This document shows positions 46,195-64,000 of a stretch of 64,000 nucleotides of DNA, piece by piece; the stretch's first letter is position 1; the number at the start of each line of letters is the position of its first letter. Made by a program: the position numbers and the translations under genes. The notes below the pieces were generated by a model. The model made no database searches. It saw only the letters and a program-made list of their open reading frames with translations, and was not told where the DNA came from. This DNA comes from Acidocella aminolytica 101 = DSM 11237 (lineage in GTDB: Bacteria > Pseudomonadota > Alphaproteobacteria > Acetobacterales > Acetobacteraceae): the NCBI RefSeq assembly GCF_900129125.1, contig NZ_FQVJ01000021.1, positions 1 through 64,000 of the forward strand. Reading direction: 5' to 3'.

Positions 46195-47078
46195 GAAATT
46201 CTCACCTTGACGAGAGGCGCATGCACGAAGCGCTGGCGCTCGAGCCAGGCGCCGAGGCTCGACATGCCGCCGTATGGATAGAAATGCGCGAAGACCTGGC
46301 CGTGGCGCTCTAGCGCGAGGCCGCTGACCAGCGCGTGCACGAGTTGGTCAGGGCCGGCATGGCTGCGCAGCTTGGTCAGGGAGAAGCCGTAGCGGGCGAG
46401 TACGGCGGCGGAGGCGCTGACGCCGCACAGGGCGGCGTAGCGCAGCAGAGTGCGCAAATTGGCGGGTCCCGGCACGCCCAGGCGGACCGGGACCAGTATG
46501 CCCCCGGCGCGCAGTTCCTCCAGCCAGTCCAGCAGCGGCGTGGCGGAGAAGCAGAATTGGGTGGCGATTTCGGCCGTGAGTCCCTGATCGGCGATGGCGG
46601 CGAGTTTGTCGCGCATGGCGCGCGCGAGGCGCGGGTCGGGGATTTTGGGGTGGCCTTCCGGGTAGCCGGAGATCACGGCGGTATGCACGCCATGGCGGCG
46701 GAGCAGGCCGGTTTGCAGCAACGCCAGCGCATCCTCGAACGGGCCCGCCGGACGCGCGCAATCGCCCGCCAGCACCAACATCCGCTCGACCTTGGCCCGC
46801 GCCGCCCAACCTTCCAGCAGGCGCTCTAACGCGCCGCAGCTGCTCAGGCGGCGCGCGGCGATGTGGGGCATAGGCGTGAAACCCAATTCGCGGATGGCGG
46901 CGGCGGCGTCGAGCCGGTCGGCATCGGACTCACTGGCCAGGTAGGGAATGGCGATGATGGTGCCGGGCGCGAAGCGGGACGCCATCGCCGCGAGGTTCGG
47001 GATATCGCGGGCCGTGGCCTCCATCGACCACCCGTCCAGACAGTTCCATTGCATCGCCGCCGTCATCTCCTCGTGCAT
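46191..47078 (-). CDS. Methylenetetrahydrofolate reductase-like protein
   Basis: About 295 residues of TIM-barrel sequence related to MetF. Features include FTPMPHIAARRLSS, LVLAGDCARPAGPFEDAL, VISGYPEGHPKIPDPRLARAM and ATQFCFSATPLLDWLEELRA, the folate/flavin-site phrases of the family. The start is uncertain: ATG 47078 is used here, but GTG 47126 (overlapping the sdaA stop) and ATG 47054 are possible. Proteins of this kind recur in sarcosine and betaine degradation operons next to purU. It could channel 5,10-methylene-THF made by sarcosine oxidase; direction and product are not shown by sequence. Confidence 0.8.
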   Translation of the reverse strand: MHEEMTAAMQWNCLDGWSMEATARDIPNLAAMASRFAPGTIIAIPYLASESDADRLDAAAAIRELGFTPMPHIAARRLSSCGALERLLEGWAARAKVERMLVLAGDCARPAGPFEDALALLQTGLLRRHGVHTAVISGYPEGHPKIPDPRLARAMRDKLAAIADQGLTAEIATQFCFSATPLLDWLEELRAGGILVPVRLGVPGPANLRTLLRYAALCGVSASAAVLARYGFSLTKLRSHAGPDQLVHALVSGLALERHGQVFAHFYPYGGMSSLGAWLERQRFVHAPLVKVRIS

Positions 47079-47119
47079 CTCGTTCAAATCCGTTTGCGGT
47101 TGCGGGCGGGCCGGAGTGC

Positions 47120-48487
47120 TCAGCACTCGATGAAATTGGCGGCGAGGCCGCCGAGCGAGGTTTCCTTGTACTTGGTGTTCATATCGGCGCCGGTCTGGCG
47201 CATGGTGGCGATCACCTGGTCAAGCGAGACGATGTGCGAGCCATCGCCGCGGCGAGCGAGCGAAGCGGCGCTGATCGCCTTGATCGCGCCGAAGGCGTTG
47301 CGCTCAATGCAAGGAATTTGCACCAGCCCGCCGACGGGGTCGCAGGTCATGCCGAGGTGGTGTTCCATGGCGATTTCGGCGGCGTTTTCGACCTGCGCGT
47401 TGGTGCAGCCGCGCGCCGCCGCCAGCCCCGCCGCCGCCATCGAGGAGGCGACGCCGACCTCGCCCTGGCAGCCGACCTCGGCGCCGGAAATCGAGGCATT
47501 GGTTTTGAATAGGCCGCCAATGGCGGTGGCGGTGAAGATGAAATTGCGCATGCCCTCATGTGAGGCACCGGGGCACATGTCGCTGTAATACCGCAGCACC
47601 GCGGGAATGACGCCGGCTGCGCCGTTAGTCGGCGCGGTGACGACGCGCCCGCCAGCGGCGTTCTCCTCGTTCACCGCCATGGCGAACAGGCTGACCCAGT
47701 CCATCTTCTCATGCGGGGCGAGGTCGTTGCGGCTGGTATCGGCCTCCAGCCGCTTACGCAACGCGCGCGCTCGGCGGGGTACTTTGAGCGCGCCGGGGAG
47801 CACGCCTTCGCCCTGCAGGCCGCGGTCGATCGCCGCCATCATGGTGGCGATCACGCGGTCGACATGCGCCAGCACCTCGGCAGCCGGGCGCAACGCCACC
47901 TCGTTCGCGCGCACGATCTCGGCGATGGTTAGCCCGGTCTCCTGGCTGATGCGCAGCAGATCGACCGCGTTGGCGAATAGATAGGGCACTTGCGTGGTGA
48001 TTGCGCCGAGCGCGGCGGGTTCATCCTCGCGGGTGACGAAGCCGCCGCCGACCGAGCACCAGCGCTCGGCGGCCACCAGGGCGCCGACGGCATTGAAAGC
48101 CTCGAAGGCCAGGGTGTTGGGGTGGCGCGGCGGCGCGGTCTCACGGTCGAACACGATGTCTTCGGCTGGGGCAAAGGCGATGTTCCTGCCCTCCAGCTTA
48201 AGCGCGCCGCACGTGGAAATCTCGGCGACCAGGGTGTCGGCGTGGTCGGGATCGACCGTCTCCGGCAACTCACCCGCCAGGCCGAGGACCACGGCTTTAT
48301 CCGTGGCGTGGCCTTTGCCTGTCCAGGCCAGGGAGCCATACAGCGTCACCCGCAGCCGGGCAACGCTGGACAACTGCCCCGCCTGCTTCATTCCGCCGGT
48401 GAAGAGATGGGCGGCGCGCATCGGCCCGACGGTATGCGATGAGGAGGGGCCGATGCCGATTTTGAACAGATCAAAGGCGCTGATCAT
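47120..48487 (-). CDS. sdaA: L-serine ammonia-lyase, single-chain iron-sulfur type
   Basis: A 455-residue L-serine dehydratase that turns serine into pyruvate and ammonia. The N-terminal beta domain has FKIGIGPSSSHTVGPMRAA, and the C-terminal alpha domain has the cluster cysteines and glycines in APTNGAAGVIPAVLRYY, GAEVGCQGEVGVASSMAAAGL and MTCDPVGGLVQIPCIERNA. It lies between soxG (3 bp) and the MetF-like gene and completes carbon flow from sarcosine through glycine and serine. Confidence 0.95.
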   Translation of the reverse strand: MISAFDLFKIGIGPSSSHTVGPMRAAHLFTGGMKQAGQLSSVARLRVTLYGSLAWTGKGHATDKAVVLGLAGELPETVDPDHADTLVAEISTCGALKLEGRNIAFAPAEDIVFDRETAPPRHPNTLAFEAFNAVGALVAAERWCSVGGGFVTREDEPAALGAITTQVPYLFANAVDLLRISQETGLTIAEIVRANEVALRPAAEVLAHVDRVIATMMAAIDRGLQGEGVLPGALKVPRRARALRKRLEADTSRNDLAPHEKMDWVSLFAMAVNEENAAGGRVVTAPTNGAAGVIPAVLRYYSDMCPGASHEGMRNFIFTATAIGGLFKTNASISGAEVGCQGEVGVASSMAAAGLAAARGCTNAQVENAAEIAMEHHLGMTCDPVGGLVQIPCIERNAFGAIKAISAASLARRGDGSHIVSLDQVIATMRQTGADMNTKYKETSLGGLAANFIEC

Positions 48488-48490
48488 CGG

Positions 48491-49057
48491 TTAATCCGCG
48501 TATTCACAGCCGACATTGGCCAACAGCGACCACACATAGGGCGCGAAGGAACGCCAGACTTCCATGTGGAAGCGTGTCAAATCCTGACGCCACAGCACGA
48601 TCTCGGCCTTGAAGAAGATGGTGCGCGTGGCCATGCCGACCGGAAAGGCGGCGGGGTCGAAATCGAGCGGGCAACCACCGTTGAGGATGTCGGTGACCGC
48701 TACGCCTTCAAGCGCGATGCCCGTCTGCCGGTGGCTGATATCGGCGAGCGAATACAGCCCGTCCGTCAGCCGTTGCGAGAGGCTGGCGGCGACGGTGGCG
48801 GCATCGGTCTCTGCGAGCAGCAGCAGCCACTCATCGGGGCCGAGGCGCAGCGCGGTGCGCTGGCCCGCACTGACCGCGCGGTTGATCGGGCCGGTGAGGT
48901 CGAGGCCCAGGGCCTCGCCCGCCGCGCCGAGCGATGCCTGCGGCACGCGCAGCGAGAAGCGGGCGCCGCCGGTAACGGGGCGGCAATGCCTGTCTCCGGC
49001 CTGGCCGCTGAGCGCAAACAGCCGCGACAGCGAGGTCGTCTCTGCAAGATTATCCAT
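48491..49057 (-). CDS. soxG: Sarcosine oxidase gamma subunit
   Basis: A 188-residue protein from the ATG at 49057, which overlaps the soxA stop by 8 bp; the frame is open further upstream within soxA but that part is not like SoxG. It shows the SoxG/YgfZ-like pattern: RLGPDEWLLL, SLADISHRQTGIALEG and a C-terminal HMEVWRSFAPYVWSLL. SoxG is the smaller folate-domain subunit of the heterotetrameric oxidase. Confidence 0.92.
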   Translation of the reverse strand: MDNLAETTSLSRLFALSGQAGDRHCRPVTGGARFSLRVPQASLGAAGEALGLDLTGPINRAVSAGQRTALRLGPDEWLLLLAETDAATVAASLSQRLTDGLYSLADISHRQTGIALEGVAVTDILNGGCPLDFDPAAFPVGMATRTIFFKAEIVLWRQDLTRFHMEVWRSFAPYVWSLLANVGCEYAD

Positions 49058-52028
49058 TGAGCCTGGTTCCTTCCGGATCATAGAAGACGGGCGCGACGAC
49101 GCTGACGCGGGCATTGCCGGTGGCGAGCGGTACGTAGAGCTGCTCGCCGGTGCGCGCCCGGCCATCGCGCAGCAGGGCCAGCGCGACGGAGCGGCCAAGC
49201 GTCTCGCTCCAATACGAGGAGGTGATATGGCCAAGCATGGTCATCGGCTTGGGCTGCGCGGGATCGGCGACGATATGCGCGCCCTCGTCGAGCACCAGCG
49301 CGGGGTCGTCGGTGAGCAGGCCAACGAGCTGCTTGCGGTTGGTCTGCTCGGCAAAGGCCTTGCGGGCCAGAGCGCGTTTGCCGACGAAGTCCGGCTTGGC
49401 CTTGCCGATCATGCCAGCATAGCCGACATCATCCGGAGTCACCGTGCCGTCGGTCTCCTGGCCGACGATGATGTAGCCCTTCTCGGCGCGCAGCACGTGC
49501 ATGGTCTCGGTGCCATAGGGCGTGATGTCATACGGCTTGCCGCTGGCCATCAGCGCCTCCCACACGGCGCGGCCGTAATCGGCGGGCACGTTGATCTCGA
49601 AGCCGAGCTCGCCGGTGAAGCTGACGCGGAACAGGCGTGCCGGGACACCGGCGATCTTGCATTCCACCATGCTCATATGCGGCAGCGCCTCGGCGGAGAT
49701 ATCCGCCCCCGTGATCAGCGGCGCTACGACCTTGCGCGCCATCGGCCCCTGCACCGCAATCACCGCGTATTGCTCGGTGGTCGAGGTCAGCCAGACATTG
49801 AGTTCGGGGAACTCGGTCTGCAGGTAATCCTCCATCATCGTCAGCACGCGCGCCGCGCCGCCGGTGGTGGTGGTGACGTGGAACCGCGTATCGGTGATGC
49901 GGCCGATGACGCCGTCATCGATGACGAAGCCGTCCTCGCGCAGCAGGATGCCGTAGCGCAGCTTGCCAGGCTGCAGCTTGGTCCAGGCGTTGATGTACAT
50001 GCGGTTGAGGAACTCCGCCGCATCCGGGCCGACGACCTCGATCTTGCCTAGGGTAGAGGCATCGAAAATGCCAACCCCGTTGCGCACGGCGCGGCATTCG
50101 CGCGCCACCGCCTTGTGCATGTCCTCGGAGCCGCGCGGGAAGTAACGCGCGCGCTTCCACAGGCTGACATCCTCGAACACCGCGCCCTGGGCCTCGGCCC
50201 AGCCATGGATCGCGGTGTGGCGCTCGGGATCGAACAGCTCTCCGCGCGCATAGCCCGCGAAATAGCCGAACGGCACCGGCGTGTAGGGCATGCGGAAGGT
50301 GGTGGTGCCGATAGCGGGGACCGGCTTGCCCAGCACCGGCGACATGATGCCGAGCGCGTTCATGTTCGACAGCTTGCCCTGATCAGTGGCCATGCCGTTG
50401 GTGGTGAAGCGCTTGACATGCTCGACCGACTTCATGCCCTCACGCATCGCCAGCGCGATATCCTTGGCGGTGACATCGTTCTGGTAGTCGAGGAAGGCGC
50501 GGACCGAACCGGGATCGCCATGATAGGGCACGGCTCCGATGAAGCCGCCTTGCGCCTCCGGCGCGTTGGTCACCTGATAGCTGAAAGCGCTGCCACCCGC
50601 GGCTTCGGCCCCCGCCTCGGCGCCCGAAGCCATCACTTCGGCCAGGGCGGCCACGCCCGCGGCGCTGCCGGCGACGCTGCACGCCTCGGCCGGCGCGCCG
50701 GGAAGGAAGGCGTCCAGCGTGGCATCGAACACCAGCTTGCCGCGGCTCTGCGAGAACAGATGCACGCTCGGGGTGAAGCCTCCAGACATCAGCAGCGTGT
50801 CGCAGCTAAGGCGCTGCCCGCTGCCGCCGGCGATCGGCTTGACGGTAGCGCCGGTGATGCGCAGGCGCCCATCCGTGGTAGCGATGGTCGAGGCCGGGTA
50901 TATGGCCAGCCCCGCCTTTTGCGCGGCGGCCACCCAGGGCCCGCCCGCATTCGGCCGCAGATCGACGATGCCGGCGATCGCGCAGCCGGCGCGTTGCAGC
51001 GCCAGCGCCGTGCGGTAGGCGCCGTCATGCGCGGTGAAGATCAGCGCCCGGCGGCCGGGCAGCACGCCGTAGCGCTCCAGGTAGAGGCGCGCAGCCTCGG
51101 CCAGCATGATGCCGGGCCGGTCATTATCCGGGAACACCAGAGGCCGCTCGATGGCGCCCGCGGCGATGACCACGCGCTTGGCGCGTACCTGCCACAGTCG
51201 GCCGCGCGGCTGCGCGTCGTTGCGCTCGCCCTCATGGTCGGTAAGCGCCTGAGCCAGGCCGATCATGTTGTGCGGGAAGTAGCCGAAGGCGGTGGTACGG
51301 GTGAGCAGCTTTACCTGCGGATAGGCGACGAACTGGGCCAGCGCGGTCTTCAGCCATTCGGCGGCGGGCAGGCCGTCGATCTGCGCATCGGGTTCGGCCA
51401 GCAGCGACCCGCCCGCCTCGGATTGCTCATCGCACAGGATCACCCGCGCGCCGGTCTTGGCGGCGGCCAGGGCGGCAGCTAGGCCGGCCGGGCCAGCGCC
51501 GACCACCAGCACGTCGCAATGCGCGAAGCGCTGGGCGTAGCGGGCGGCATCCGGGGTTTGGGGCGAGCGGCCAAGGCCGGCCATCTCGCGGATGCGCGGC
51601 TCGAAGAATTTCGTCCACGCCTTCCGCGGCCACATGAAGGTCTTGTAGTAGAACCCGGCCGGAAAGAAGCGCCAGAACACATCGTTGATCGCGCCGTAAT
51701 CGCGCTCCAGCGAAGGCGCGCGGTTCTGGCTCTCGGAGGTCAGGCCGTCATAGAGTTCGACCTGGGTGGCGCGCAGATTGGGCGTGAAATGCGCATCATC
51801 GCGCCCGACGCCGACCAGCGCATTGGGCTCCTCGCCGCCGGCGGTGAGGATGCCGCGGGGGCGGTGATATTTGAACGAGCGGCCGACGAGATGCACGCCA
51901 TTGGCGAGTAGGGCCGAGGCCAGCGTGTCACCGGGATGACCAAGGTAGAGCTTGCCGTCGAAGCTGAAAGTGAGCGTGCGGGTGCGGTCTATCCGGCCGC
52001 CTGCGGAAAGCCGATAAGATTGCGTCAT
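49050..52028 (-). CDS. soxA: Sarcosine oxidase alpha subunit
   Basis: A 992-residue subunit of heterotetrameric sarcosine oxidase, which oxidises sarcosine to glycine, passing the methyl group to THF as 5,10-methylene-THF with hydrogen peroxide formed. The N-terminal ferredoxin-like region (GRSFKYHRPRGILTAGGEEPNALV) precedes an NAD-binding Rossmann fold (DVLVVGAGPAGLAAALAAAKTGARVILCDE near residue 172). The C-terminal 380 residues are a GcvT-type THF-binding aminomethyltransferase domain (FDASTLGKIEVVGPDAAEFLNRMYIN). The start overlaps soxD by four bases. Confidence 0.96.
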   Translation of the reverse strand: MTQSYRLSAGGRIDRTRTLTFSFDGKLYLGHPGDTLASALLANGVHLVGRSFKYHRPRGILTAGGEEPNALVGVGRDDAHFTPNLRATQVELYDGLTSESQNRAPSLERDYGAINDVFWRFFPAGFYYKTFMWPRKAWTKFFEPRIREMAGLGRSPQTPDAARYAQRFAHCDVLVVGAGPAGLAAALAAAKTGARVILCDEQSEAGGSLLAEPDAQIDGLPAAEWLKTALAQFVAYPQVKLLTRTTAFGYFPHNMIGLAQALTDHEGERNDAQPRGRLWQVRAKRVVIAAGAIERPLVFPDNDRPGIMLAEAARLYLERYGVLPGRRALIFTAHDGAYRTALALQRAGCAIAGIVDLRPNAGGPWVAAAQKAGLAIYPASTIATTDGRLRITGATVKPIAGGSGQRLSCDTLLMSGGFTPSVHLFSQSRGKLVFDATLDAFLPGAPAEACSVAGSAAGVAALAEVMASGAEAGAEAAGGSAFSYQVTNAPEAQGGFIGAVPYHGDPGSVRAFLDYQNDVTAKDIALAMREGMKSVEHVKRFTTNGMATDQGKLSNMNALGIMSPVLGKPVPAIGTTTFRMPYTPVPFGYFAGYARGELFDPERHTAIHGWAEAQGAVFEDVSLWKRARYFPRGSEDMHKAVARECRAVRNGVGIFDASTLGKIEVVGPDAAEFLNRMYINAWTKLQPGKLRYGILLREDGFVIDDGVIGRITDTRFHVTTTTGGAARVLTMMEDYLQTEFPELNVWLTSTTEQYAVIAVQGPMARKVVAPLITGADISAEALPHMSMVECKIAGVPARLFRVSFTGELGFEINVPADYGRAVWEALMASGKPYDITPYGTETMHVLRAEKGYIIVGQETDGTVTPDDVGYAGMIGKAKPDFVGKRALARKAFAEQTNRKQLVGLLTDDPALVLDEGAHIVADPAQPKPMTMLGHITSSYWSETLGRSVALALLRDGRARTGEQLYVPLATGNARVSVVAPVFYDPEGTRLNG

Positions 52029-52294
52029 GGGAGCATCTCCCCGATGCGATAACTCGCCTCGATATGGTCAGTATAGGTGTTGCGCTTGACGTTGAAAAAT
52101 CGGCCACAGCCAAACGCGTGGCGCCAGCGCTCGGCATGGTCGCCGCGCGGGTTCTTCCGGAAGTAGAGGAACTCGGTCCAGGCCGCGTCGTCCTCCTTAC
52201 GGGGGTCGGCGGCGCGCACAACATGCGCCTCGCCGCCATAGGCGAACTCGATCTCGGGCCGGTTGCCGCAATAGGGGCAGGGAATCAGGAGCAT
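52025..52294 (-). CDS. soxD: Sarcosine oxidase delta subunit
   Basis: An 89-residue zinc-binding subunit. It opens with LLIPCPYCGNRPEIEF, whose CxxC pair with later residues (GCGRFFNV) forms the zinc site, and contains YFRKNPRGDHAERWRH, highly typical of SoxD. It lies between soxB (13 bp) and soxA (4-bp overlap), the usual BDAG order. Confidence 0.95.
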   Translation of the reverse strand: MLLIPCPYCGNRPEIEFAYGGEAHVVRAADPRKEDDAAWTEFLYFRKNPRGDHAERWRHAFGCGRFFNVKRNTYTDHIEASYRIGEMLP

Positions 52295-52307
52295 TGCTTG
52301 GCGTCCT

Positions 52308-53561
52308 TCAATGGGCGACCGCGGCGGCGGCGGCTTCGTCGATCAGCCGGCCAGCGCCAAAGCGCTCGAGGTTGAACGGGGCGTTGATCGGGTGCGGCTC
52401 GTCCTTGGCGATGGTGTAGGCGAGCAGATCCGCCGCGCCAGGGGTGGCCTTGAAGCCGCCCGTGCCCCAACCGCAATTTACATACAGGCCCGGCACCGGG
52501 GTCTTGCCCAGGATCGGCGAGCGGTCCGGCGTGACATCGACGATGCCGCCCCAGTTGCGCATCATCCGCATGCGCCGGAAGATCGGGAACAGCTCGCAGA
52601 TCGCCTCCAGCGTGTGCATCGGAATATGCAGCGCGCCGCGCTGGCTGTAGGAGACATAGGAATCCGTGCCCGCGCCGATCACCAGCTCACCCTTGTCGGA
52701 CTGGCTGATATAGGCGTGGATGGTGTTGGACATCACCACGCAGGGGAAGATCGGCTTCACCGGCTCCGACACCAGCGCCTGCAGCGGATAACTCTCCAAC
52801 GGCATGCGCAGCCCGGCCATCTCCATCACCAGCGAGGTACTGCCCGCGGCGCTGACTCCGATCTTGCGCGCGCCGATGCGCCCGCGCGTGGTCTGCACAC
52901 CCGTCACGCGGCCGGTGGCGTCGCGCTCAATGCCGGTGACCTCGCAATTCTGGATGATATCGACCCCCAGCGCGTCGGCGCCGCGGGCGTAACCCCAGGC
53001 CACGGCGTCGTGGCGCGCCGTGCCGGCGCGGCGCTGCAGCGCCGCGCCGGTGACGGCATGGCGCATGCCGGGCGCAATGTTCAGCGGCGGGCAGAAGGCC
53101 TTGGCCTGCTCCGGCGTCAGCCATTCATTGTCAACGCCGTTCAGGCGGTTGGCATAAACATGGCGCTTGAAGCTCTGCTCGTCGTGTACATTATGCGCCA
53201 CCATTAGCACGCCGCGCTGCGAGAACATAACGTTGTAGTTGAGGTCCTGAGACAGGCCCTCCCACATCTGCAGCGCGTGATCGTAGAGCGCGGCGCTCTC
53301 GTCGAACAGATAGTTCGAACGGATGATGGTGGTGTTGCGGCCGGTATTGCCGCCACCGATCCAGCCTTTCTCCAGCACCGCGACATTGCGGATGCCATGC
53401 TTCTGGGCCAGGTAATAGGCGGCGCCAAGGCCGTGACCACCACCACCGATGATGATCACGTCGTAAGACGATTTGGGTTCGGGATCGCGCCATTGAGGCT
53501 TCCAGCCTTTGTGGCCGTTCAGCGACTGCTTGATCAGCGCGAGAGCGGAGTAGCGTTGCAT
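52308..53561 (-). CDS. soxB: Sarcosine oxidase beta subunit
   Basis: A 417-residue flavoprotein subunit from the ATG at 53561 ([20 protein letters not shown], the typical SoxB beginning); a longer open frame upstream has no such similarity. The FAD motif is [17 protein letters not shown], followed by [20 protein letters not shown], where the covalent flavin histidine region lies further on, and a C-terminal [18 protein letters not shown]. It performs the sarcosine oxidation proper. Confidence 0.95.
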
Positions 53562-53631
53562 GAGATGATGACGCCTTAAGCTTCGGGTTGGTTTGTGTTG
53601 GTTTTGGAAATCCCGCTGCCGCGGGGATCTC

Positions 53632-54954
53632 TCAGCTGAGCGACGGATAAAGCGGGAAGGCTTCACACAGCGTGTTGACCTTCCGCCGCACCGCCGCGGT
53701 TACCGCCTCTTCGTCGGGTTTGCCGATCACGTCGAGCATTTCCACGATCAGGTCCGCCACCTGCGCGAACTCCGCCGTGCCGAAGCCGCGCGTGGTGCAG
53801 GCCGGCGTACCAAGGCGGATGCCGGAGGTGACCATCGGCTTCTCCGGATCGAACGGGATGCCGTTCTTGTTACAGATGATGCCGGCGCGGTCGAGCGCTT
53901 GCTCCGCCGCCTTACCGGTCAGCCTCTTGGGCCGCAAATCCACCAGCACGAGATGCGTGTCGGTGCCGCCCGAGACGATGCCGCAGCCATGGCCCGCCAG
54001 ACGCTCGGCCAGCACGGCGGCGTTGGCGACCACCGCCTTCGCGTAGGTCTTGAATTTGGGGCTCAGCGCCTCGCCAAAGGCCACCGCCTTGGCCGCAATC
54101 ACATGCTCCAGTGGCCCGCCCTGCAGGCCAGGAAACACCGCCGAGTTCAATTTTTTGGCGAGTGCCTCGTCATTGGTGAGGATGAGGCCGCCGCGCGGGC
54201 CGCGCAGCGTTTTGTGGGTGGTGCTGGTCACCACATGCGCGTGCGGGAACGGGCTGGGGTGCCCCCCCGCCGCCACCAGGCCAGCGATATGGGCGATATC
54301 GACCATCAGATACGCGCCAACCTCATCGGCAATCGCCCGGAAGCGGGCGAAATCAATGATGCGGGGAATCGCCGAGCCGCCGGCAATGATCAGCTGCGGC
54401 CGATGCTCGCGCGCCAGCGCCGCCACCTGGTCGTAGTCAATGGCCTGAGTCTCCGCGCTCACGCCATATTGCACCGCATGCAGCCATTTGCCGGAAAGCG
54501 TCGGCGCGGCGCCATGCGTGAGATGCCCGCCATGGGCCAGGCTCATGCCCATGATGGTGTCGCCCGGCTGCAACAGCGCGAACAGCACCGCGCCATTGGC
54601 CTGCGCCCCTGAATGCGGCTGCACGTTGGCGAATTCACAACCGAACAGTCGCTTGGCACGGTCAATCGCGAGCTGCTCGATGACATCGACATATTCGCAG
54701 CCGCCATAATAGCGCTTGCCCGGATAACCCTCGGCGTATTTGTTCGTCAGAATGCTGCCCTGCGCCTGCAACACCGCACGCGAAACGATGTTCTCACTCG
54801 CAATCAGCTCCAACCCGTGACGCTGGCGCACAAGCTCGTGCCGAAGGGCATCCGCGATCGCAGCATCGCTGCGCGCCAAATCAAGGTCAAAAAAATCTCG
54901 CACATCCTGCGATGCGATAACCTGCTCGGTCTTGATGCTTGCAACAACATCCAT
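53632..54954 (-). CDS. glyA: Serine hydroxymethyltransferase
   Basis: A 440-residue PLP enzyme interconverting glycine plus 5,10-methylene-THF with serine plus THF. The PLP lysine lies in [17 protein letters not shown], and [32 protein letters not shown] and [15 protein letters not shown] are family motifs. The start at 54954 has AAGGGG upstream. It precedes soxB by 70 bp. A copy inside a sarcosine operon serves to combine both sarcosine oxidase products into serine. Confidence 0.95.
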
Positions 54955-55038
54955 GAGCCCGCCCCTTCCCATCCGTCGTTTTCTAAACTTAAAGCAATGC
55001 TGCGCGACGAAGCCTTAATCCCACCACGCAGCAGAACA

Positions 55039-56253
55039 TTACTTCACAATCAGGTGCTCAGGACCGTAGGGGAAACCCGTGATGTTACGGTTGCCATCCT
55101 CGGTAACCACGAGAATGTCGTGCTCGCGATAACCACCAGCCCCCGGCTTATCCTCGGGGATGGTGATCATCGGCTCCATCGACACGACCATGCCCGGCTC
55201 CAGCACGGTGTCGCAATCCTCGCGCAGTTCCAGCGCGCCTTCGCGGCCGTAGTAGTGGCAAAGCACACCGAAGGAGTGGCCATAGCCGAACGAGCGGTAT
55301 TGCAGCAGCCCCTCGGAGGCGTACATCTCATTCAGTTCTTTCGCCACATCAGAGCATTTGTTGCCCGGCACCAGAAGCTCTTTGCCGCGGTCATGCACAC
55401 GGCAGTTGAAATCCCACAGCCGGATATGCTCGTCGGTCGCCGTCTCCGCGAACAGCGTGCGCTCCAGAGCCACGTAGTAGCCAGCCACCATCGGGAAGCA
55501 GTTCAGGCTGAGGATGTCGCCGCGCTTGATCTTACGGCTCGTGACCGGATTATGCGCGCCGTCGGTGTTGATGCCAGACTGGAACCAAGTCCAGGTGTCC
55601 ATCAATTCCGCATGCGGCCAGGTCTTCGCGATTTCACGCACCATCTTCGCGGTCGAGTGCAGCGCCACCTCATGCTCCGGCGCGCCAACCTTGGTCGCCT
55701 CAACGCAAGCTGCACCGCCGATATCAGCAATCTTCGCCATCTTGGTGATGTGCTCAATTTCCTCGGCCGACTTGATCATACGCAGACGCTGTGCAGGATA
55801 GGCAATGTCAACAAATTCGATGGTCGGGAACTCGACCTTGAGCAGGTTCAGCAGGTCAATGTTGACGTGGTCGAATTCAATGCCGAGACGCTTGGCGCCA
55901 CCAACCAACTGGCGAACGGCATGGAAATAATTATCCTTCTGCCAGTCCGTATAGGTGACATTACCGCCAAAGGTGCGGCGCCAGGGCTGGCCACCATCAA
56001 TGCCTGCCGAGATGCTGGTCGATTTATTGTGATCGACGAGCAGGCCATAACGGCGGCCAAAATAGCAATACGTGAAATCGGAATAATAGCAGATATTGTG
56101 ATACGACGTGAACAAAGCCGCATCGATCTTATTCGCCGCCATATGGTTGCGAATTGAGGTCAGACGCCTGGTCATCTCACCCGCCGAGAAGGTTGGCTGC
56201 ACCTTCGCGCCATTATTCGTGAAATCCTGTAAACGCTCCCGTTCCATAACCAT
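55039..56253 (-). CDS. Creatinase (creatine amidinohydrolase)
   Basis: A 404-residue member of the M24 pita-bread fold that hydrolyses creatine to sarcosine and urea without metal. Long diagnostic stretches match characterised creatinases: FTSYHNICYYSDFTYCYFGR, ISAGIDGGQPWRRT, LMDTWTWFQSGINTDGAHNP, LNCFPMVAGYYVALERTLF, FGYGHSFGVLCHYYGREG and VSMEPMITIPE. The family's catalytic His and Glu lie in these blocks. The start at 56253 could be moved two residues to the second ATG. It is followed by glyA and the sox genes, feeding sarcosine straight to the oxidase. Confidence 0.95.
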   Translation of the reverse strand: MVMERERLQDFTNNGAKVQPTFSAGEMTRRLTSIRNHMAANKIDAALFTSYHNICYYSDFTYCYFGRRYGLLVDHNKSTSISAGIDGGQPWRRTFGGNVTYTDWQKDNYFHAVRQLVGGAKRLGIEFDHVNIDLLNLLKVEFPTIEFVDIAYPAQRLRMIKSAEEIEHITKMAKIADIGGAACVEATKVGAPEHEVALHSTAKMVREIAKTWPHAELMDTWTWFQSGINTDGAHNPVTSRKIKRGDILSLNCFPMVAGYYVALERTLFAETATDEHIRLWDFNCRVHDRGKELLVPGNKCSDVAKELNEMYASEGLLQYRSFGYGHSFGVLCHYYGREGALELREDCDTVLEPGMVVSMEPMITIPEDKPGAGGYREHDILVVTEDGNRNITGFPYGPEHLIVK

Positions 56254-56321
56254 TTTCTCCGTTAGTTTTTTTCATCTCTGGCGCATCCGCCTAGGCTTAA
56301 ATTGTTAGGTATTCTGGAAAA

Positions 56322-56362
56322 CGTCAAATGATAAGTTCTCATCGACAAGATGAGTTTTTCTC
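56322..56362 (-). promoter_or_regulatory. Predicted creatinase promoter with LysR-type boxes
   Basis: On the minus strand the order is box GAGAAAAACTC (56352-56362), box GAGAACTTATC (56330-56340) 22 bp on, then TTGACG (56322-56327) as a -35. The gap between proximal box and -35 is two bases, exactly as at the creatininase promoter. The -10 is not clear. The sequence CTCATC-N5-GATGAG (56338-56354) also forms a small hairpin with a T-run on the plus strand. Confidence 0.55.
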
Positions 56363-56524
56363 TTTTCAGAGCACATTAATCGCTACGACATTCAGCACTG
56401 AAATCACAAGTAAATGACGATTAAATTCTGAATATCTCGATTGGTCTTTACATTACCAGGCGATCAAACTCGTGAAATGTTTGCGTTTTAATCTTCGGAT
56501 CATTTTACCGCGATCAAATAAAGA

Positions 56525-56551
56525 GCAGCCGAACACACCGTGTCCGGCTGC
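56525..56551 (-). terminator. Strong inverted repeat, probable terminator after the creatininase/permease unit
   Basis: A 12-bp stem with one mismatch (GCAGCCG-A-ACAC against GTGT-C-CGGCTGC) and a three-base loop. On the minus strand it is followed by CTCTTTATTTG, a modest U-run. It lies upstream of the creatinase promoter, where a terminator for the upstream transcription unit is expected once the IS at 56711-58043 is removed. Confidence 0.5.
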
Positions 56552-56710
56552 AAAAATCAAGCTGATATCGACGACTCGACTGCTCGATCACCTTTTCATA
56601 CCCCGTGTCGGGGCACGATTGATTATCGTCTATAGTCAGCCGATCTCTGCCATGAAAGACGAACGATCATTCGCAGATCTATCCATCTCCACCAAAGACA
56701 GTCGGCTAAA

Positions 56711-58043
56711 AGGCCGCTGCAAAACCCTTGCATTTGGCTGGATTGACCGATTCTTTTCTCCTTATGGGGGGATGTGAAGCGTGGTCGTTCTGGTTCTGGT
56801 GACGAGCTTTTCAGTTTTGTGCGTCTTGAGGAGCGTGTGCCTTCGGATCATCCTCTGCGGGTAATCCGGGGCTTGCGGATGAGGTTCTGGTGGGCTTGAG
56901 CTACAGTTTTTCCAAGCTTTATGCGCATACCGGCCGGCCCTCGATCCCGCCTGAGATGCTGTAGCGGGCGACGCTTTTGCAAGCGCTGTATTCTGTGCGC
57001 TCAGAGCGGATGCTGATGGAGCAGATCAACTACAACCTGCTGTATCGCTGGTTTGTCGAGCTCTCGATGGACGCGTCCGTGTGGCACTCGACGGGTTTCA
57101 CACATAACCGCGACCGGCTGCTGCAGGCCGATGTGGCGCGGGCGTTTCTGCAGGGCTTGCTGGCGCTGAAGCAGGTCAAGCGGCTGCTCTCGTCTGAGCA
57201 TTTTTCGGTCGATGGCACGCTGATCGATGCGTGGTGCAGCATGAAGAGCTTTGTGCCCAAGAACAAAGGGGACGAGCCTCCGGCACCGCCCGCAGGGCGC
57301 AATGCAGAGCGTGATTTCCGGGGCGAGACACGTTCGAACGAGACCCATGCCTCAACCACCGGCCCGGACGCGAGGCTGTACCGCAAGAGCCAGGGCCAGC
57401 CCGCCGGGCTGTGCTATATGGGGCATGTGCTGATGGAGAACCGTAACGACCTGGTGCTGGACAGCACGCTCCCCGACGCCTGCTTTCCAGCGATATATCG
57501 TATCGCTGGAACCTTGGCAGGCTTCGCCCATGCAACCGGCACCGCCGAGCGCGACGCCACGCTGACCATGCTGGACCGCCGCACCTCACGCCAGCGCATC
57601 ACGCTGGGGGCCGATAAAGCCTATGATGTTGCCGATTTCATGGGTGAACTAAGCACCCGCAAGGTGACACCGCATATCGCCATCAACGGCACGGTCTATA
57701 AAACAGGCACACGGCGCAAGAGCGCCATCGACGGCCGCACCACGCGCCATCCAGGCTACGAGATCAGCCTGCGATGTCGAAAACGCATCAAGGAAGTCTT
57801 CGGCTGGGAAAAGGCCAGCGCCGGATTGAGCAAGTTCAAAGTCAAATCACAGAAAAAAGCCGACGCCGTATTCACCTTCTTCGCCGCTGCATTCAATCTC
57901 GTCAGACTTCCAAACTTGCTCAGCCAACAGCCCGCCTGATCCTCGGAACAGAACAAAGCCAAGCCTCAGGCTGACCTGCAACAACAAACCACAGGCTTTA
58001 AACAGAGAAAACAATGCTATCCTGTAGAGTTTTGCGGCGGCCT
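56711..58043 (+). mobile_element. Decayed IS5-superfamily element between the creatinase and permease genes
   Basis: The ends are inverted repeats: AGGCCGCTGCAAAACCC at 56711-56727, and AGGCCGCCGCAAAACTC read on the minus strand from 58043. They match at 15 of 17 positions. The element of about 1.33 kb ends 28 bp from the permease stop codon. No convincing target-site duplication was seen. The transposase inside is broken. Confidence 0.75.
56774..57939 (+). pseudogene. IS5-superfamily transposase with frameshift and nonsense mutation
   Basis: The frame begins at a GTG (56774) as MKRGRSGSGDELFSFVRLEE and HPLRVIRGL, then shifts near 56875; the other frame continues ADEVLVGLSYSFSKLYAHTGRPSIPPEM. 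A TAG follows at 56962-56964, and the frame then runs to 57939 through MLMEQINYNLLYRWFVELSM, HFSVDGTLIDAW, RSNETHASTTGPDARLYRK and LGADKAYDVADFMGEL. These are the DUF772 and DDE domains of IS5-superfamily transposases. Two lesions make it a pseudogene. Confidence 0.82.
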
Positions 58044-58070
58044 GTTAAACCAACTCAATGTTTCCATGCA

Positions 58071-59507
58071 TCATCCACGAACCTCCGCAAATGCTCCAGC
58101 CTTATATTTAGATTTCGCCAACGCCCAATAAACGAGGGCAGCGGAAAGTATACCGGCTTCTAAGCTCAGATCGCCCCACCCCAACACATTCGTCATCAGC
58201 GGGCTTGCGTATGTTTCTGAATTCGAAAAAACGAGCGACATGATGATGCCCGCCGCGAACGCGGTAACACCGGGCCAGAATATGCCATTTCGATACCAAT
58301 AACGCCCGCTACCCCATTTCATCATATCGACCGAATTGTAATTTCCGCCACGCATGAAGTAGTCGACAATCACAATTGCCGCCCAAGGACCTGTCCAGAA
58401 GACCATGTAGTTCAGGAAATTCTGATATGCATCGAAGAAGGCGCCATAATACACCACGGCAATCCGCACACAGACCGTAAACAATGTAATGACCACGAGC
58501 GAAAACAGACGTGTCATGGGCAGGCGCAGAGCCAGAAGCCCCAGGCTGGCGGTGTAACCATTTGGAACATTCGCTGCAATGCCGCCAAAAATCACGGCAA
58601 TCAGTAGCGGCACCATGAACCAGGTTGGAATGAAATGGCCGAGTTGACTAACCGGATCATTGCCAAGATTACCACCTACCGCGATTGCGAACACCACGCC
58701 TATGACCTCACACAGGGCTAGCGAAACAAACTGCCCAAGCCCGGCAGCAAGCGCGATCTGCTTCCAACTCAAAGACGACGGGAAGTAGCGACTATAGTCG
58801 GAGGCGAAGTTTGTCCAGGCTATCGGGTAGGATACGATAATCCCGACTGCTACCAACCAGGAGCCAAACGAGCCCTGGTGTTGGTTGAAGGTTATCAGCT
58901 GCTGCATTGGCACATGCGGCGCCACAAAAAGGGCTAAGCCGCAGAACAACACTGCCAGCACGACGGCAATGAAACCTTCAGCAGCAATGATGGTGGCATG
59001 CCCATATACGGCCATGATAATTTCAGTCGCCAGTACCAAGCCGAGTGCTACCCATACAGAACTATGACCATTATAGCCGGCGAGACTGAACAATTCCTGC
59101 AACGCATCGGTGGCGACAATCGACTGGATCGAGAACCAGCTCAAGGCTGAAACGACGTTGGGGATTTTAGGCAGAACAGATCCCAACTGCCCGAAAGAAA
59201 CACGCGAAGTCATCATACCCGAAGTGCCAGTTCGCGGCCCCTGGATCGAGGTAAGGCCGACCATGACGCACCCAATCAGGTTCCCAACTATGATCGCCAT
59301 GATAGCCTGAACAAATGTTACGCCTACCGATAGAGCAAACGCCCCCGTCACGATAACGACGTAATTGACGTTGGCACCCACCCATAGCTTGAATAACTCA
59401 AACGGCGAACCGTGCCGGTCACCGATCGGTATCGGATCGATACCATGGCGTTCAATGCTACCAACTTTGTCTGCCTTAACAAAGGCGTGACCTACATCGT
59501 CACTCAT
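58071..59507 (-). CDS. NCS1-family permease, candidate creatinine/creatine transporter
   Basis: A 478-residue transporter of the cytosine/purine/allantoin permease family with about 12 helices. It shows IERHGIDPIPIGDRHGSPFELFKLWVGANVNYV at the N terminus, LTSIQGPRTGTSGMMTSRVSFG and ASDYSRYFPSSLSWKQI, which are NCS1 motifs. Members carry N-heterocycles with sodium or protons. It begins 42 bp downstream of creatininase on the same strand. Creatinine is a cyclic N-heterocycle, so it is a fitting cargo; this is inference from context. Confidence 0.88.
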   Translation of the reverse strand: MSDDVGHAFVKADKVGSIERHGIDPIPIGDRHGSPFELFKLWVGANVNYVVIVTGAFALSVGVTFVQAIMAIIVGNLIGCVMVGLTSIQGPRTGTSGMMTSRVSFGQLGSVLPKIPNVVSALSWFSIQSIVATDALQELFSLAGYNGHSSVWVALGLVLATEIIMAVYGHATIIAAEGFIAVVLAVLFCGLALFVAPHVPMQQLITFNQHQGSFGSWLVAVGIIVSYPIAWTNFASDYSRYFPSSLSWKQIALAAGLGQFVSLALCEVIGVVFAIAVGGNLGNDPVSQLGHFIPTWFMVPLLIAVIFGGIAANVPNGYTASLGLLALRLPMTRLFSLVVITLFTVCVRIAVVYYGAFFDAYQNFLNYMVFWTGPWAAIVIVDYFMRGGNYNSVDMMKWGSGRYWYRNGIFWPGVTAFAAGIIMSLVFSNSETYASPLMTNVLGWGDLSLEAGILSAALVYWALAKSKYKAGAFAEVRG

Positions 59508-59549: not shown

Positions 59550-60332
59550 TCAGGACGGCTGCCACCACGGCTCGTGCTTGAGGACATCCGAAATTCCCAC
59601 CACCGTCACGTCGAAAAGGATCTGACCTTTTTCCGCGGTCGCCGCCGCGGGCGAAGAAAGGCAACCCGATTCTGGGGTCCACTCCGGAATTGGCGGGAAC
59701 ACCGTATAGGGCGGGAATTTTGCCGGTGCCTGAATGGGCGCCAGCGACATATCGACCATTTCCGGCTTCAGATGCAGCATCAGCGATGTTTCGAGTATGC
59801 CGCCATGCTCGACATCCCATCCCGTGAAATCGTCAGGAAAAACCTTCTTGATCGTCTCCTGCGTCACGAAGTCCCAGTAGGAGATGTTGATCACCCGAAA
59901 ATCATCTATGCCGCTCCATTTGAGTTCCTGAATAGCGAGCTCAACCCCCTCGGTAGCGAATGGAAGATTTTCGTAATGACCATTGATCACAGCAATCCGG
60001 CGTACGCCATGGCGGCCAAACTCCTTCAGGACATCCTTCAGCGCGAGGCTCAGCGTGTGCCCGTCCAGACTGGTGGTGCCACACATATGATTGCCACCAC
60101 CACTCTTTTGCTGCGACTTGGCACCATATGCGAAGGCCGGCGCGACGAGAGCGCCAATATTCCTTGCCACGGCGCCAGAAATAGCAGAGGGGATGACCAC
60201 ATCCGGGTTCATCGACATATGCGGCCCGTGTTGCTCTAGCGCCCCCAACGGAATCAACACGGGCTGGCGCTCGTCAACCACGCGGCGGCGGTATTCGGTC
60301 CATGCCAATTCATCGATCATCACGTTAACCAT
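59550..60332 (-). CDS. crnA: Creatininase (creatinine amidohydrolase)
   Basis: A 260-residue metal-dependent amidohydrolase that opens creatinine to creatine. The metal ligands lie in LIPLGALEQHGPHMSMNPDVVIP (Glu, His, Asp in the first 50 residues), INGHYENLPF (His around 120, Glu after) and the conserved WDVEHGGILETSLML. Length equals that of the Pseudomonas enzyme. The related family members include mycofactocin MftE and formamide hydrolases, but the presence of creatinase and sarcosine oxidase supports creatininase. First gene of its unit, followed by the permease. Confidence 0.92.
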   Translation of the reverse strand: MVNVMIDELAWTEYRRRVVDERQPVLIPLGALEQHGPHMSMNPDVVIPSAISGAVARNIGALVAPAFAYGAKSQQKSGGGNHMCGTTSLDGHTLSLALKDVLKEFGRHGVRRIAVINGHYENLPFATEGVELAIQELKWSGIDDFRVINISYWDFVTQETIKKVFPDDFTGWDVEHGGILETSLMLHLKPEMVDMSLAPIQAPAKFPPYTVFPPIPEWTPESGCLSSPAAATAEKGQILFDVTVVGISDVLKHEPWWQPS

Positions 60333-60719: not shown

Positions 60720-60781
60720 GTTTTATTCAACGGAAACCACTTGTCAAAGGAGAAAATCTCACCGTATAGTGAGAAAATCTC
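60720..60781 (-). promoter_or_regulatory. Creatininase-unit promoter with paired LysR-type boxes
   Basis: GAGAAAATCTC (GAGA-AAA-TCTC, a perfect dyad) occurs at 60750-60760 and 60771-60781, a 21-bp period that places both on one face of the helix. The distal box extends to TGAGATTTTCTCA, a T-N11-A LysR box. On the minus strand a consensus -35 TTGACA (60742-60747) starts two bases after the proximal box, and TAAAAC (60720-60725) lies 16 bp further on as -10. This is the usual placement for a LysR activator. The lysR gene starts at 60800 in the other direction, so it could also autoregulate here. Confidence 0.75.
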
Positions 60782-60799
60782 AAGAAAAAGGAGCCAAGG

Positions 60800-61672
60800 G
60801 TGGGGTATGCGCCGTTAAACGCTCTAAAGGTATTTGACGCGGTGTTCCGGCATGGAACTTTCTATGGCGCTGCCAAAGAGTTGAGCGTCACGCCATCAGC
60901 AATCAGTCATCAGATGCGGCATCTTGAAGAATGGCTCGGGATAGGCCTGTTCGAGCGGCGTGGAAAGCAGCTTAAGTTTGACGCTCACGCCATTTCGTTG
61001 GCCGGCGCTCTGCGCCTCGCGTTTTCTGACATTGACCGCGCTTGCCAGGAGGTGCGCCGAAAAAACAAAAACCAGCAACTAACGGTTGCGGTTATTCCCT
61101 CGGTTGCGATTTGCTGGCTGATCCCCAGGCTCCCGCTCTTTCGCGAGCTTGAGCCAAAAATCGACCTTAAAATTATTTACGCCATATTTGGCCATGAGAT
61201 TAACTTTGAGGACGTTGATATCGCAATTATTTATGCGAGAGACATGCCCGTTGTGCCGAAGATGCATGCGGTCCAAATCCTGTCCGGCGCGAGCGCTCCA
61301 GTTTGCAGCCAAAGTTTTATGGACAGGCACCCAAGATTGAACGACGCCGGCGATGTTGCCCGCTTCAATCTACTGCATGATACAGATACGGGAGGCTGGC
61401 GCGCCTGGCTTGGCGATGACTACCCGGTGAAGACCGGCGCGGCGGCGGACATCATCTTCGAGGATTTCAACCTGCTGCGAGCCGCTGTGCTTGCGGGCCA
61501 AGGGATTGCGCTTTGCGCCACGTCCATCATCCAGGACGATCTGGAGACCGGCCGCCTCGTTAAATTATCCGATCGTACGATCAACAATGAGTATAATTAT
61601 TTTGCGGTATGCCGGGAGTCGCTCGACGGCGGCCCTGTCAGTATTTTTTTCGAGTGGTTAAGGCATCTCTGA
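60800..61672 (+). CDS. LysR-family regulator (GcvA-like), 3' end replaced by an IS end
   Basis: A 290-residue LysR regulator starting at a GTG with AAGGAG six bases upstream. The helix-turn-helix (about 5-64) reads LNALKVFDAVFRHGTFYGAAKELSVTPSAISHQMRHLEEWLG; the C-terminal effector domain has the GcvA-type phrases VAVIPSVAICWLIPRLPLF, VDIAIIYARD and AAVLAGQGIALC. The last codons (after FFEW) are encoded by the left end of the IS5 remnant, which supplies LRHL and the TGA stop. Only a few native C-terminal residues are lost, so it is probably still functional. It is the evident regulator of creatinine use. Confidence 0.85.
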   Translation: MGYAPLNALKVFDAVFRHGTFYGAAKELSVTPSAISHQMRHLEEWLGIGLFERRGKQLKFDAHAISLAGALRLAFSDIDRACQEVRRKNKNQQLTVAVIPSVAICWLIPRLPLFRELEPKIDLKIIYAIFGHEINFEDVDIAIIYARDMPVVPKMHAVQILSGASAPVCSQSFMDRHPRLNDAGDVARFNLLHDTDTGGWRAWLGDDYPVKTGAAADIIFEDFNLLRAAVLAGQGIALCATSIIQDDLETGRLVKLSDRTINNEYNYFAVCRESLDGGPVSIFFEWLRHL

Positions 61673-62079: not shown

Positions 62080-62334
62080 ATGTCCGAGCTTGCCACAGTC
62101 GGTATCGACCTCGCAAAGAGTGTCTTCCAGGTTCATGGTGTCGACGAGAACGGTCGAATTCTCATGCGCCGTCAGCTTCGCCGAAGTCAGTTGCTGGCAT
62201 TTTTTGAGAAACGTCCGCGATGCCTGATCGGCATGGAGGCTTACGCAGGTGCTCATGACTGGGGGCGCAGGCTGCGGGAACTGGGGCATGACGTCCGGCT
62301 TATGCCTCCTTCTTATGTGAAGCCTTACGTGAAG
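62080..62334 (+). pseudogene. IS110-family transposase, truncated after the N-terminal domain
   Basis: The ATG at 62080 has AGAGGAG upstream. The protein shows the IS110/IS1111 DEDD-type beginning ATVGIDLAKSVFQVHGVDE, CLIGMEAYAGAHDWGRRLRELGHDVRLMPPSYVKPYVK. Family members continue with a KNDAADAEA motif, but here the sequence changes abruptly at about 62335 into the end of another element, and a chance frame stops at 62400. The leader at 61900-62079 probably belongs to the same IS. Confidence 0.8.
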
Positions 62335-62444
62335 TTATGGGCAGGTGCCCATAAGTTCACTAATCACGAGGTGCCCATAATGCGGAGGAGCGCGGCCTGA
62401 TTGGCGGATTTCCGCCGTTTTTGTCCATGTTTCCTCCGCATTAT
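62335..62444. repeat. Terminal structure of the RIT-type element
   Basis: Three motifs are nested here. TTATGGGCA and TGCCCATAA form a perfect 9-bp inverted repeat around GG (62335-62354). TGCCCATAA recurs directly at 62372-62380. ATAATGCGGAGGA (62377-62389) and TCCTCCGCATTAT (62432-62444) form a perfect 13-bp inverted repeat with a 42-bp interior, which itself holds the hairpin GGCGGA-TT-TCCGCC (62403-62416) followed by a G and five Ts. The last recombinase gene ends two bases beyond. The set looks like a recombinase core site plus a terminator. Confidence 0.65.
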
Positions 62445-62445
62445 C

Positions 62446-63450
62446 TTAGAGCGTGTCCAGCCAGGCGAGCACACTTGCATCGCGCTTCCACGATGGCTGG
62501 CCGCCGCGTGTGGTCGGAACGGCGACCTTCTCCAGTGCCTTTCGCTTTGTTTCGAGATTGGCCCGGGCATAGTGGTTGGTCGTATCGAGGCTCACATGAC
62601 CAAGCCAGCTTCGGATCACTGTAACGTCGACGCCCGCCGAGATGAGATGCACGGCGGTGGCATGTCGGAAGGCGTGGGGCGTAACATGCTTAGCCCGCAG
62701 TGATGGCACGGTTATGGCCGCTGCCTTCACGTAGGCGGCGAGCTTGAAGCGGACCCCTGAGGCGCTGAGCTGCTCCCCATAGCGGTTGACGAACAGTCTC
62801 TGGTCCGGCGCCCGTGGTTGCCGTTCAAGCAGCTTCTTCAACAACATGACTGTTTCCGGCCAGAGCGGGCAGATACGTTCCTTCCGCCTCTTGCCGATTA
62901 GGCGCACGCAGTTTGGGCTTTCGAACCGGATCGCTTCGGGGCACAGGTCGAGCGCTTCCTGTATTCGTGCGCCGCTGTTGTAGAGGAACGAGAGCAGCGC
63001 ATGATCACGCATGCCCTCAACGGTCAAACGGTCTGGCTGAACGAGGATCGCCGTCACTTCCGCCGGATCCAGATAGCTCGGTTCCGCCAGCGGAGCCCGC
63101 TTGATCGGGATATGGAGGATTTCGACGCATTGCGCGATCGACGCGGGATCCTTGGTGGCCACGAAGTGGAAGAAGCTGCGGATCGCGGCAAGCCGGCAGT
63201 TGCGCGTGCCGATCGTACCGCCACGCTCGTGTTCGGCGTGACCGAGGAACGCGGCAACCTCGCTGGCAGCCAGATCGGCCAGGGTGATTGTAGGCACCTT
63301 CTTTCCAGCACGCTGCGCGATGAACCGCAGTAACAGACGCCAGGTGTCGCGGTATGATCGAACCGTATGGATAGACGCGTTACGCTGCTCGACCAGCCAT
63401 TCGTAGAAGAACGCGCGCAGCAGGTTCGGGAACGGGTCGGCCTTGCTCAT
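62446..63450 (-). CDS. Tyrosine recombinase, third of a recombinase-in-trio (RIT) element
   Basis: A 334-residue tyrosine recombinase from the ATG at 63450, which overlaps the upstream recombinase stop by four bases. The N-terminal SAM-like domain spans about 10-110; catalytic residues are Arg in LLSFLYNSGARIQEALDL, the Lys strand in RLIGKRRKERICPLWP, HxxR in TPHAFRHATAVHLI, His/Trp in RSWLGHVSLDTT and the nucleophile Tyr in NHYARAN. Two overlapping recombinases at an element end are the mark of RIT elements, in which three different tyrosine recombinases act together. The first member would lie beyond the window. Confidence 0.85.
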   Translation of the reverse strand: MSKADPFPNLLRAFFYEWLVEQRNASIHTVRSYRDTWRLLLRFIAQRAGKKVPTITLADLAASEVAAFLGHAEHERGGTIGTRNCRLAAIRSFFHFVATKDPASIAQCVEILHIPIKRAPLAEPSYLDPAEVTAILVQPDRLTVEGMRDHALLSFLYNSGARIQEALDLCPEAIRFESPNCVRLIGKRRKERICPLWPETVMLLKKLLERQPRAPDQRLFVNRYGEQLSASGVRFKLAAYVKAAAITVPSLRAKHVTPHAFRHATAVHLISAGVDVTVIRSWLGHVSLDTTNHYARANLETKRKALEKVAVPTTRGGQPSWKRDASVLAWLDTL

Positions 63451-64000
63451 GGCTGCGCCTCCCGTCCCAGGCTGAGGCATTGTGCGCCAACTGCCCGGAA
63501 CCGCTCATTTGCGTAATGCAGCAACTCCTGCGTCACGGTGATGTAGACCAGGGTAGAGTTGATATCCCGATGGCCGAGATAGGTCGCGAGGAACGGCAGG
63601 CGATCCTGCGGATCGATGCCCGTTCGGTACCATTCGAGGATTCTATTCACGACCATTGAGTGGCGCAGGTCATGCACGCGCGGGCCAGCCTTTCCTTGCA
63701 ATGGTTTCAACTCGGCGCGGCGTATGACGTCGGAGAGCAGCCACGTGATCATTTCCGGTGTGTAATGGCCATCGCCGCGCTCGTGCCAGAACAGACCGGA
63801 ACGCGCGTCCTGTGATGCACCGGCCCGCTGCCGCGCATTGATGTAGGCCCGAAGCTCCACTAAAACGCTGTCGGGTAGCGGCAAAATGCGGGTCTTGAAG
63901 AACTTGGTCTGCCGGATGGTGATGGTACCCACCTGTAGGTCAACATCACCAAGATTGAGACGGGCAAGCTCGCCGCGCCGCAAGCCCGCGCAATAGGCGA
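63447..64000 (-). CDS. Tyrosine recombinase, second RIT gene (N terminus beyond the right edge)
   Basis: The frame is open to the window edge (AYCAGLRRGELARLNL at the start of the visible part), so only the catalytic domain is seen. Catalytic Arg lies in GLRRGELARL, HxxR in VHDLRHSMVVNRI, His in LATYLGHRDINST and Tyr in LVYITVTQEL. The final codons overlap the next recombinase (ATGA). Order, overlap and strand are those of a RIT element. Confidence 0.8.
   Translation of the reverse strand, partial: AYCAGLRRGELARLNLGDVDLQVGTITIRQTKFFKTRILPLPDSVLVELRAYINARQRAGASQDARSGLFWHERGDGHYTPEMITWLLSDVIRRAELKPLQGKAGPRVHDLRHSMVVNRILEWYRTGIDPQDRLPFLATYLGHRDINSTLVYITVTQELLHYANERFRAVGAQCLSLGREAQP

Follow-up and report, generated by a model that had tools for sequence, protein, structure and literature searches.

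Paired T-N11-A boxes before the creatininase and creatinase genes of Acidocella aminolytica: predicted operators of one GcvA-type LysR regulator

The creatinase and creatininase genes of Acidocella aminolytica 101 = DSM 11237 are each preceded by a pair of palindromic boxes followed by a TTGAC element. We analysed these sites, at 56322-56363 and 60742-60782, in a 64,000-nucleotide stretch of DNA (contig NZ_FQVJ01000021.1, positions 1 to 64,000; hereafter the window). With good confidence, we regard both as operators of a single GcvA-type LysR regulator, encoded at 60800-61672, which would activate both transcription units and repress its own gene. As the same site pair lies before both gene sets and has been kept in related species, one nearby regulator very probably switches both on. 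Such systems are already well known in kind, and this one is a clean new example; no description of a creatinine regulon of this sort in Acidocella was found in the open-licence literature.

In the proposed circuit, the regulator would bind a tandem pair of T-N11-A palindromes (TGA-N7-TCA) that are separated by two helical turns; the inner palindrome would abut the -35 hexamer. Its inducer would be a pathway compound (probably creatinine, creatine or a product), in response to which the regulator would activate a first unit encoding creatininase and an NCS1 permease, and a second encoding creatinase, serine hydroxymethyltransferase, sarcosine oxidase and one-carbon enzymes, and it would repress its own gene. 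Protein binding, activation rather than repression, the inducer, autorepression and the transcription starts are all elements that we infer from the sequence.

Results and discussion

Architecture of the two promoter sites

At the creatinase promoter, all elements lie on the minus strand: a distal LysR-type box AGAGAAAAACTCA (56351-56363; 11-mer GAGAAAAACTC at 56362-56352), a proximal box TGAGAACTTATCA of the form T-N11-A (56329-56341; 11-mer GAGAACTTATC at 56340-56330) and TTGACG (56322-56327), presumed to be the -35 element. The creatininase promoter is built in the same way and on the same strand, with a distal box TGAGATTTTCTCA (60770-60782), a proximal box TGAGATTTTCTCC (60749-60761), both containing the 11-mer GAGATTTTCTC (60781-60771 and 60760-60750, respectively), and TTGACA as presumed -35 element (60742-60747). 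Re-reading of the window located both box pairs and their TTGAC elements where an earlier note on this DNA had placed them, and the likeness that it described is confirmed. Its pattern TGAGA-N3-T-x-TC-x-TTTGAC occurs at exactly two places in the 64 kb, both strands considered, and these are the two promoters. The same note had held the spacing to be equal, which is true from proximal box to TTGAC, the latter beginning two bases past the box at both sites, but not from box to box, where the starts are separated by 22 bp at creatinase and by 21 bp at creatininase.

A consensus -10 element was looked for at both promoters and found at neither. At creatininase, a candidate -10 (AAAACT, 60724-60719) lies 17 bp downstream of the -35 element and is invariant in all six orthologous regions. 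The five creatinase promoters have in common an AATA about 9-10 bases past TTGAC (window 56300-56320), with no counterpart at the equivalent place at creatininase.

On the opposite strand, a promoter is predicted for the LysR gene (TTGTCA-N18-TATAGT, 60741-60770, plus strand; one found against 0.3 expected), which spans the proximal creatininase box and the spacer between the boxes. Because this promoter overlaps the same boxes, the LysR protein should repress itself. As a separate observation, TTTGACAA (60741-60747) is invariant at creatininase (6/6), only TTTGAC being kept at creatinase; owing to the extra AA, the opposite strand there reads TTGTCA, presumed to be the -35 of the LysR gene, so that the two opposed promoters may share one element.

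Conservation in orthologous clusters

Among the 37 genomes of the genus searched, the window's included, creatinase orthologues (88-97 % identity) were retrieved from four further genomes, and the order LysR, creatininase, permease, creatinase is common to all four of these clusters. Genes for serine hydroxymethyltransferase and sarcosine oxidase follow creatinase in three of them; in the fourth, the BP5.bin5 stretch, the three serine hydroxymethyltransferase and sarcosine oxidase queries had no match. A sixth genome, MAG clean1021, carries the LysR gene and a partial creatininase gene at a contig end, with the creatininase site present. The LysR gene is divergent from creatininase in 6/6 orthologous loci, window included. 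The earlier note's expectation of paired boxes ahead of both genes in orthologous clusters is borne out in all five genomes that have the cluster, the window's among them; counted by locus, paired boxes and TTTGAC precede creatinase in 5/5 and creatininase in 6/6 of those examined.

In both upstream alignments, the box-box-TTTGAC segment lies within the most conserved block: the best 42-column window holds 28 invariant columns in each, against a mean of 11.5 for creatininase (six sequences) and of 6.9 for creatinase (five sequences). In the ten distinct sites, the distal box always has GA and TCA and the proximal box TGA, and TTTGAC never varies, the five creatinase sites included. T-N11-A holds in most boxes; in the window and in Acidocella sp. 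KAb 2-4, however, the distal creatinase box carries A in place of T, and this box fits TGA-N7-TCA in 3/5 orthologous sites. At the proximal creatinase box, the sequence is TGAGAACTTATCA in the window and TGAAAACTTATCA in KAb 2-4, the remaining three genomes having TGAAAACATATCA. GAGA-N3-TCTC, which had been put forward as the motif, is a version found mainly at creatininase, and we dropped it as the conserved motif since orthologous creatinase sites retain only TGA-N7-TCA or part of it; what is conserved is TGA-N7-TCA (T-N11-A).

Resemblance of the two sites and chance expectation

For a two-box matrix, training sites were taken only from creatininase, in the window, in KAb 2-4 and in the MAG; 60 first-order Markov windows served as control. 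On the minus strand, the creatinase site reached 23.7 and the best Markov window 21.5. The site scored higher still (30.5) on the plus strand, because the boxes are palindromic and their A/T-rich cores are inverted relative to creatininase; a TTGAC adjoining these boxes, directed towards creatinase, is present on the minus strand alone. The reverse matrix, a weaker test built from three orthologous creatinase sites only, put the creatininase site at 22.9, below the best Markov window at 23.8. With a profile of four creatininase sites alone, the creatinase site came out as the second match within the window's genome (E 0.025) and was also found in two other genomes, G017 (E 0.0087) and G034 (E 0.026); it was missed in G009 and G021, i.e. 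in two of the five genomes having it. All these matches to creatinase sites fall on the opposite strand, which is what palindromes with inverted cores should give.

The site pair was chosen post hoc by the reader of a 64-kb window, which favours a chance match, and the wording that one promoter "copies" the other would also fit a recent duplication of promoter DNA. We give almost no credence to either, given that the sites are conserved at both genes in five genomes, each with its own sequence, and that the creatininase-trained score at the creatinase site exceeds those of all 60 Markov windows. The architecture is indeed shared, as the word copies implies; recent duplication is rejected since each promoter keeps its own sequence version across species. 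Conservation in the orthologous loci is the strongest evidence that the likeness is real.

Specificity across genomes

The pattern GTCAAA-N-GA-N7-TCA-N8/9-TGA-N7-TC, drawn from sites already seen, gave 11 matches in 38 genomes of the genus and the same 11 in 397 genomes of the family, all in six genomes, the match in MAG clean1021 being its creatininase-side site. Its reversed control gave none in the 397 family genomes, and the chance expectation, estimated with uniform bases, is one or two matches in that set. Because the pattern derives from known sites, these counts show specificity and not discovery, and because it was drawn from the sites that it found and the genomes are related, they are not independent.

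LysR orthologues (74-95 % identity, plus the window's own; E < 1e-60) were present in the same 6/38 genus genomes as the pattern, the genome-wide LysR search having covered these 38. Creatininase-family genes occur in 12/397 genomes, six of which are those with the LysR gene; the other six, two Acidocella without this LysR (G006 and G061) and four genomes of other genera, had no pattern match. Likewise, two distant creatinase loci (L083, 66 %, and L035, 57 %) had neither a LysR match nor such a box pair within the stretch read. Syntenic box pairs and co-occurrence with the LysR gene thus support the earlier proposal that one LysR protein would control two units.

In every species, the proximal box at creatinase departs in a consistent way from the boxes at creatininase, and the cores of the creatinase boxes are inverted, as could be the case if a different transcription factor acted at creatinase and the likeness reflected convergence on a generic AT-rich palindrome beside a -35 element. 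We hold this to be quite improbable, as every genome in which the sites were found also has the LysR orthologue, and as the arms, the 21-22 bp box spacing and the position of TTTGAC are all common to the two sites. A single regulator acting at both promoters remains our preferred reading.

A profile of the ten distinct sites was run on ten genomes, six with the LysR gene and four without. It returned 12 strong matches, all at known sites, and no further convincing site in these ten genomes; weaker matches were opposite-strand partials at known sites (E 0.01 to 0.8), and those elsewhere had E 0.099 or worse. A wider regulon was therefore rejected, strong matches in the ten genomes being confined to sites already known. 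We tentatively raise the possibility of a dedicated creatinine- or creatine-sensing activator of GcvA type, with a two-promoter regulon in the six genomes carrying it and nothing further convincing beyond a relic paralogous locus, in which the inverted cores would give creatinase a response tuned differently from that of creatininase, creatine breakdown thereby being switched on separately from uptake and ring opening.

A second creatininase, about 46 % identical, is encoded elsewhere in the window's genome (L080, 6473-8187), without a tandem site of this kind before it; it lies beside a divergent GntR/FCD regulator and transporter genes.

The regulator, its paralogue and known systems

The LysR-type gene (60800-61672, plus strand), divergent from creatininase, encodes HTH_1 and LysR_substrate domains, both above gathering score. 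Its best-scoring family is GcvA, although NCBIfam PRK11139 scores 233 bits against a curated cut-off of 288; the regulator is thus a relative of GcvA and not GcvA itself. In its 62 N-terminal columns, 45 are invariant in the six orthologues and 33 once a paralogue is added. This LysR paralogue (61 %) is found in Acidocella sp. KAb 2-4 (L041, 9616-10870), beside a 147-bp permease fragment, and upstream of it lies a similar box pair, TGAATTATTTTCA and TGAATTTTTCGAA, followed by TTTGACAA. The locus has the appearance of a degenerate second copy of the system, and it connects regulator type and site type in a partly independent way.

LysR-type tetramers are described as making two contacts, with a T-N11-A site near -65 and with another site near -35 (PMC5603801). 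In E. coli, GcvA is reported to use two inverted repeats with their centres at -65 and -43 relative to the start of gcvB, the inner adjoining the -35 element and the outer overlapping the regulator's own promoter (PMC5002191). If TTGAC is taken as starting at -35, the proximal 13-mer is here centred at -43 and the distal one at -64 or -65, i.e. the same arrangement with the inner repeat beside -35. The system resembles gcvA-gcvB of E. coli as described, with a regulator of the same subfamily, a divergent gene and two repeats, the inner by the target -35; GcvA is also said to repress itself through the shared control region, an arrangement predicted here as well (PMC5002191). The half-sites differ, however, being ATTA-N7-TAAT for E. 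coli GcvA and TGA-N7-TCA here, as do the targets, gcv in E. coli and creatinine catabolic units here.

The nearest precedent in function is SoxR of Arthrobacter sp. TE1826. This strain has a monomeric oxidase and belongs to another phylum than Acidocella. Its soxR-soxA-crnA-creA cluster is reported to join a LysR-type gene to those for creatininase, creatinase and sarcosine oxidase, as here (PMC4941409). According to the same source, SoxR, a LysR-family protein of a creatinine cluster, is a negative regulator of soxA, unlike the activator proposed here (PMC4941409). By this precedent, the Acidocella regulator could bind both sites and mainly repress, induction being relief of repression. We consider this unlikely, since the inner box abuts the -35 element without covering it, the weak -10 elements suit an activator-dependent promoter, and the boxes are placed like those of GcvA at gcvB, a target that GcvA is reported to activate (PMC5002191). 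Control of both units by one LysR protein is, in our judgement, very probably the right interpretation, with activation as its likelier form. In Corynebacterium glutamicum, genes for creatinine transport and degradation, and for creatine too, are also reported to be regulated, in this case by AmtR, which is a central nitrogen regulator of the TetR family and not a LysR protein; LysR is not mentioned in that text (PMC8864220).

The analysis proposes, for the Acidocella creatinine pathway, a regulator together with its motif and two target units. If confirmed, this LysR circuit would be small and specified in full, and the natural variants of the sequence at its two promoters would allow the effects of core orientation and of 21 versus 22 bp spacing on activation to be studied; it might also yield a creatinine-responsive sensor part.

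Transcription units and the insertion element

All genes of the two units lie on the minus strand. The first comprises creatininase (59550-60332; TIGR04448, 333 bits against a cut-off of 235) and an NCS1-type permease (58071-59507), a probable importer of creatinine (or creatine), judging from its neighbours. The second opens with creatinase (55039-56253; Creatinase_N and peptidase M24 domains, identified with orthologues and synteny). The rest of this presumed unit (45343-54972) holds, in order, the genes for serine hydroxymethyltransferase and for the beta, delta, alpha and gamma subunits of sarcosine oxidase, followed by those for L-serine ammonia-lyase, an MTHFR-like protein and formyltetrahydrofolate deformylase; all are presumably co-transcribed.

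Between the permease and creatinase units lies a terminator-like hairpin with a T-rich tail (56525-56551, minus strand). The hairpin is conserved in five species, in whose alignment changes on both sides keep the pairing at some positions; the T-tract is not, a T-rich tail being absent from aromatica and aquatica. With a conserved hairpin between permease and creatinase promoter, two separately promoted units under one regulator is the best reading.

The IS insertion that the earlier note had placed between the two units does sit between permease and creatinase. It is an IS5-family element of about 1.34 kb (56710-58046, plus strand) with an interrupted transposase reading frame, flanked by a TAA/TAAA duplication of which KAb 2-4 has one copy. 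It is a lineage-specific insertion: the nearest relative has an empty site, the element is absent from the four other syntenic gaps, and no transposase match was obtained in those four clusters. No second full-length copy was found in the genome, only partial matches with 68-89 % identity. About 350 bp lie between the distal creatinase box and the start of the insertion upstream of it, and the creatinase promoter is intact; the position of the element between two independently promoted units suggests why it could be tolerated. Further mobile-element genes lie near the cluster, at 62080-63983, namely two adjacent phage-integrase-family genes on the minus strand and, on the plus strand at about 62080-62360, before the integrase genes, what appears by eye to be the start of an IS110-type transposase.
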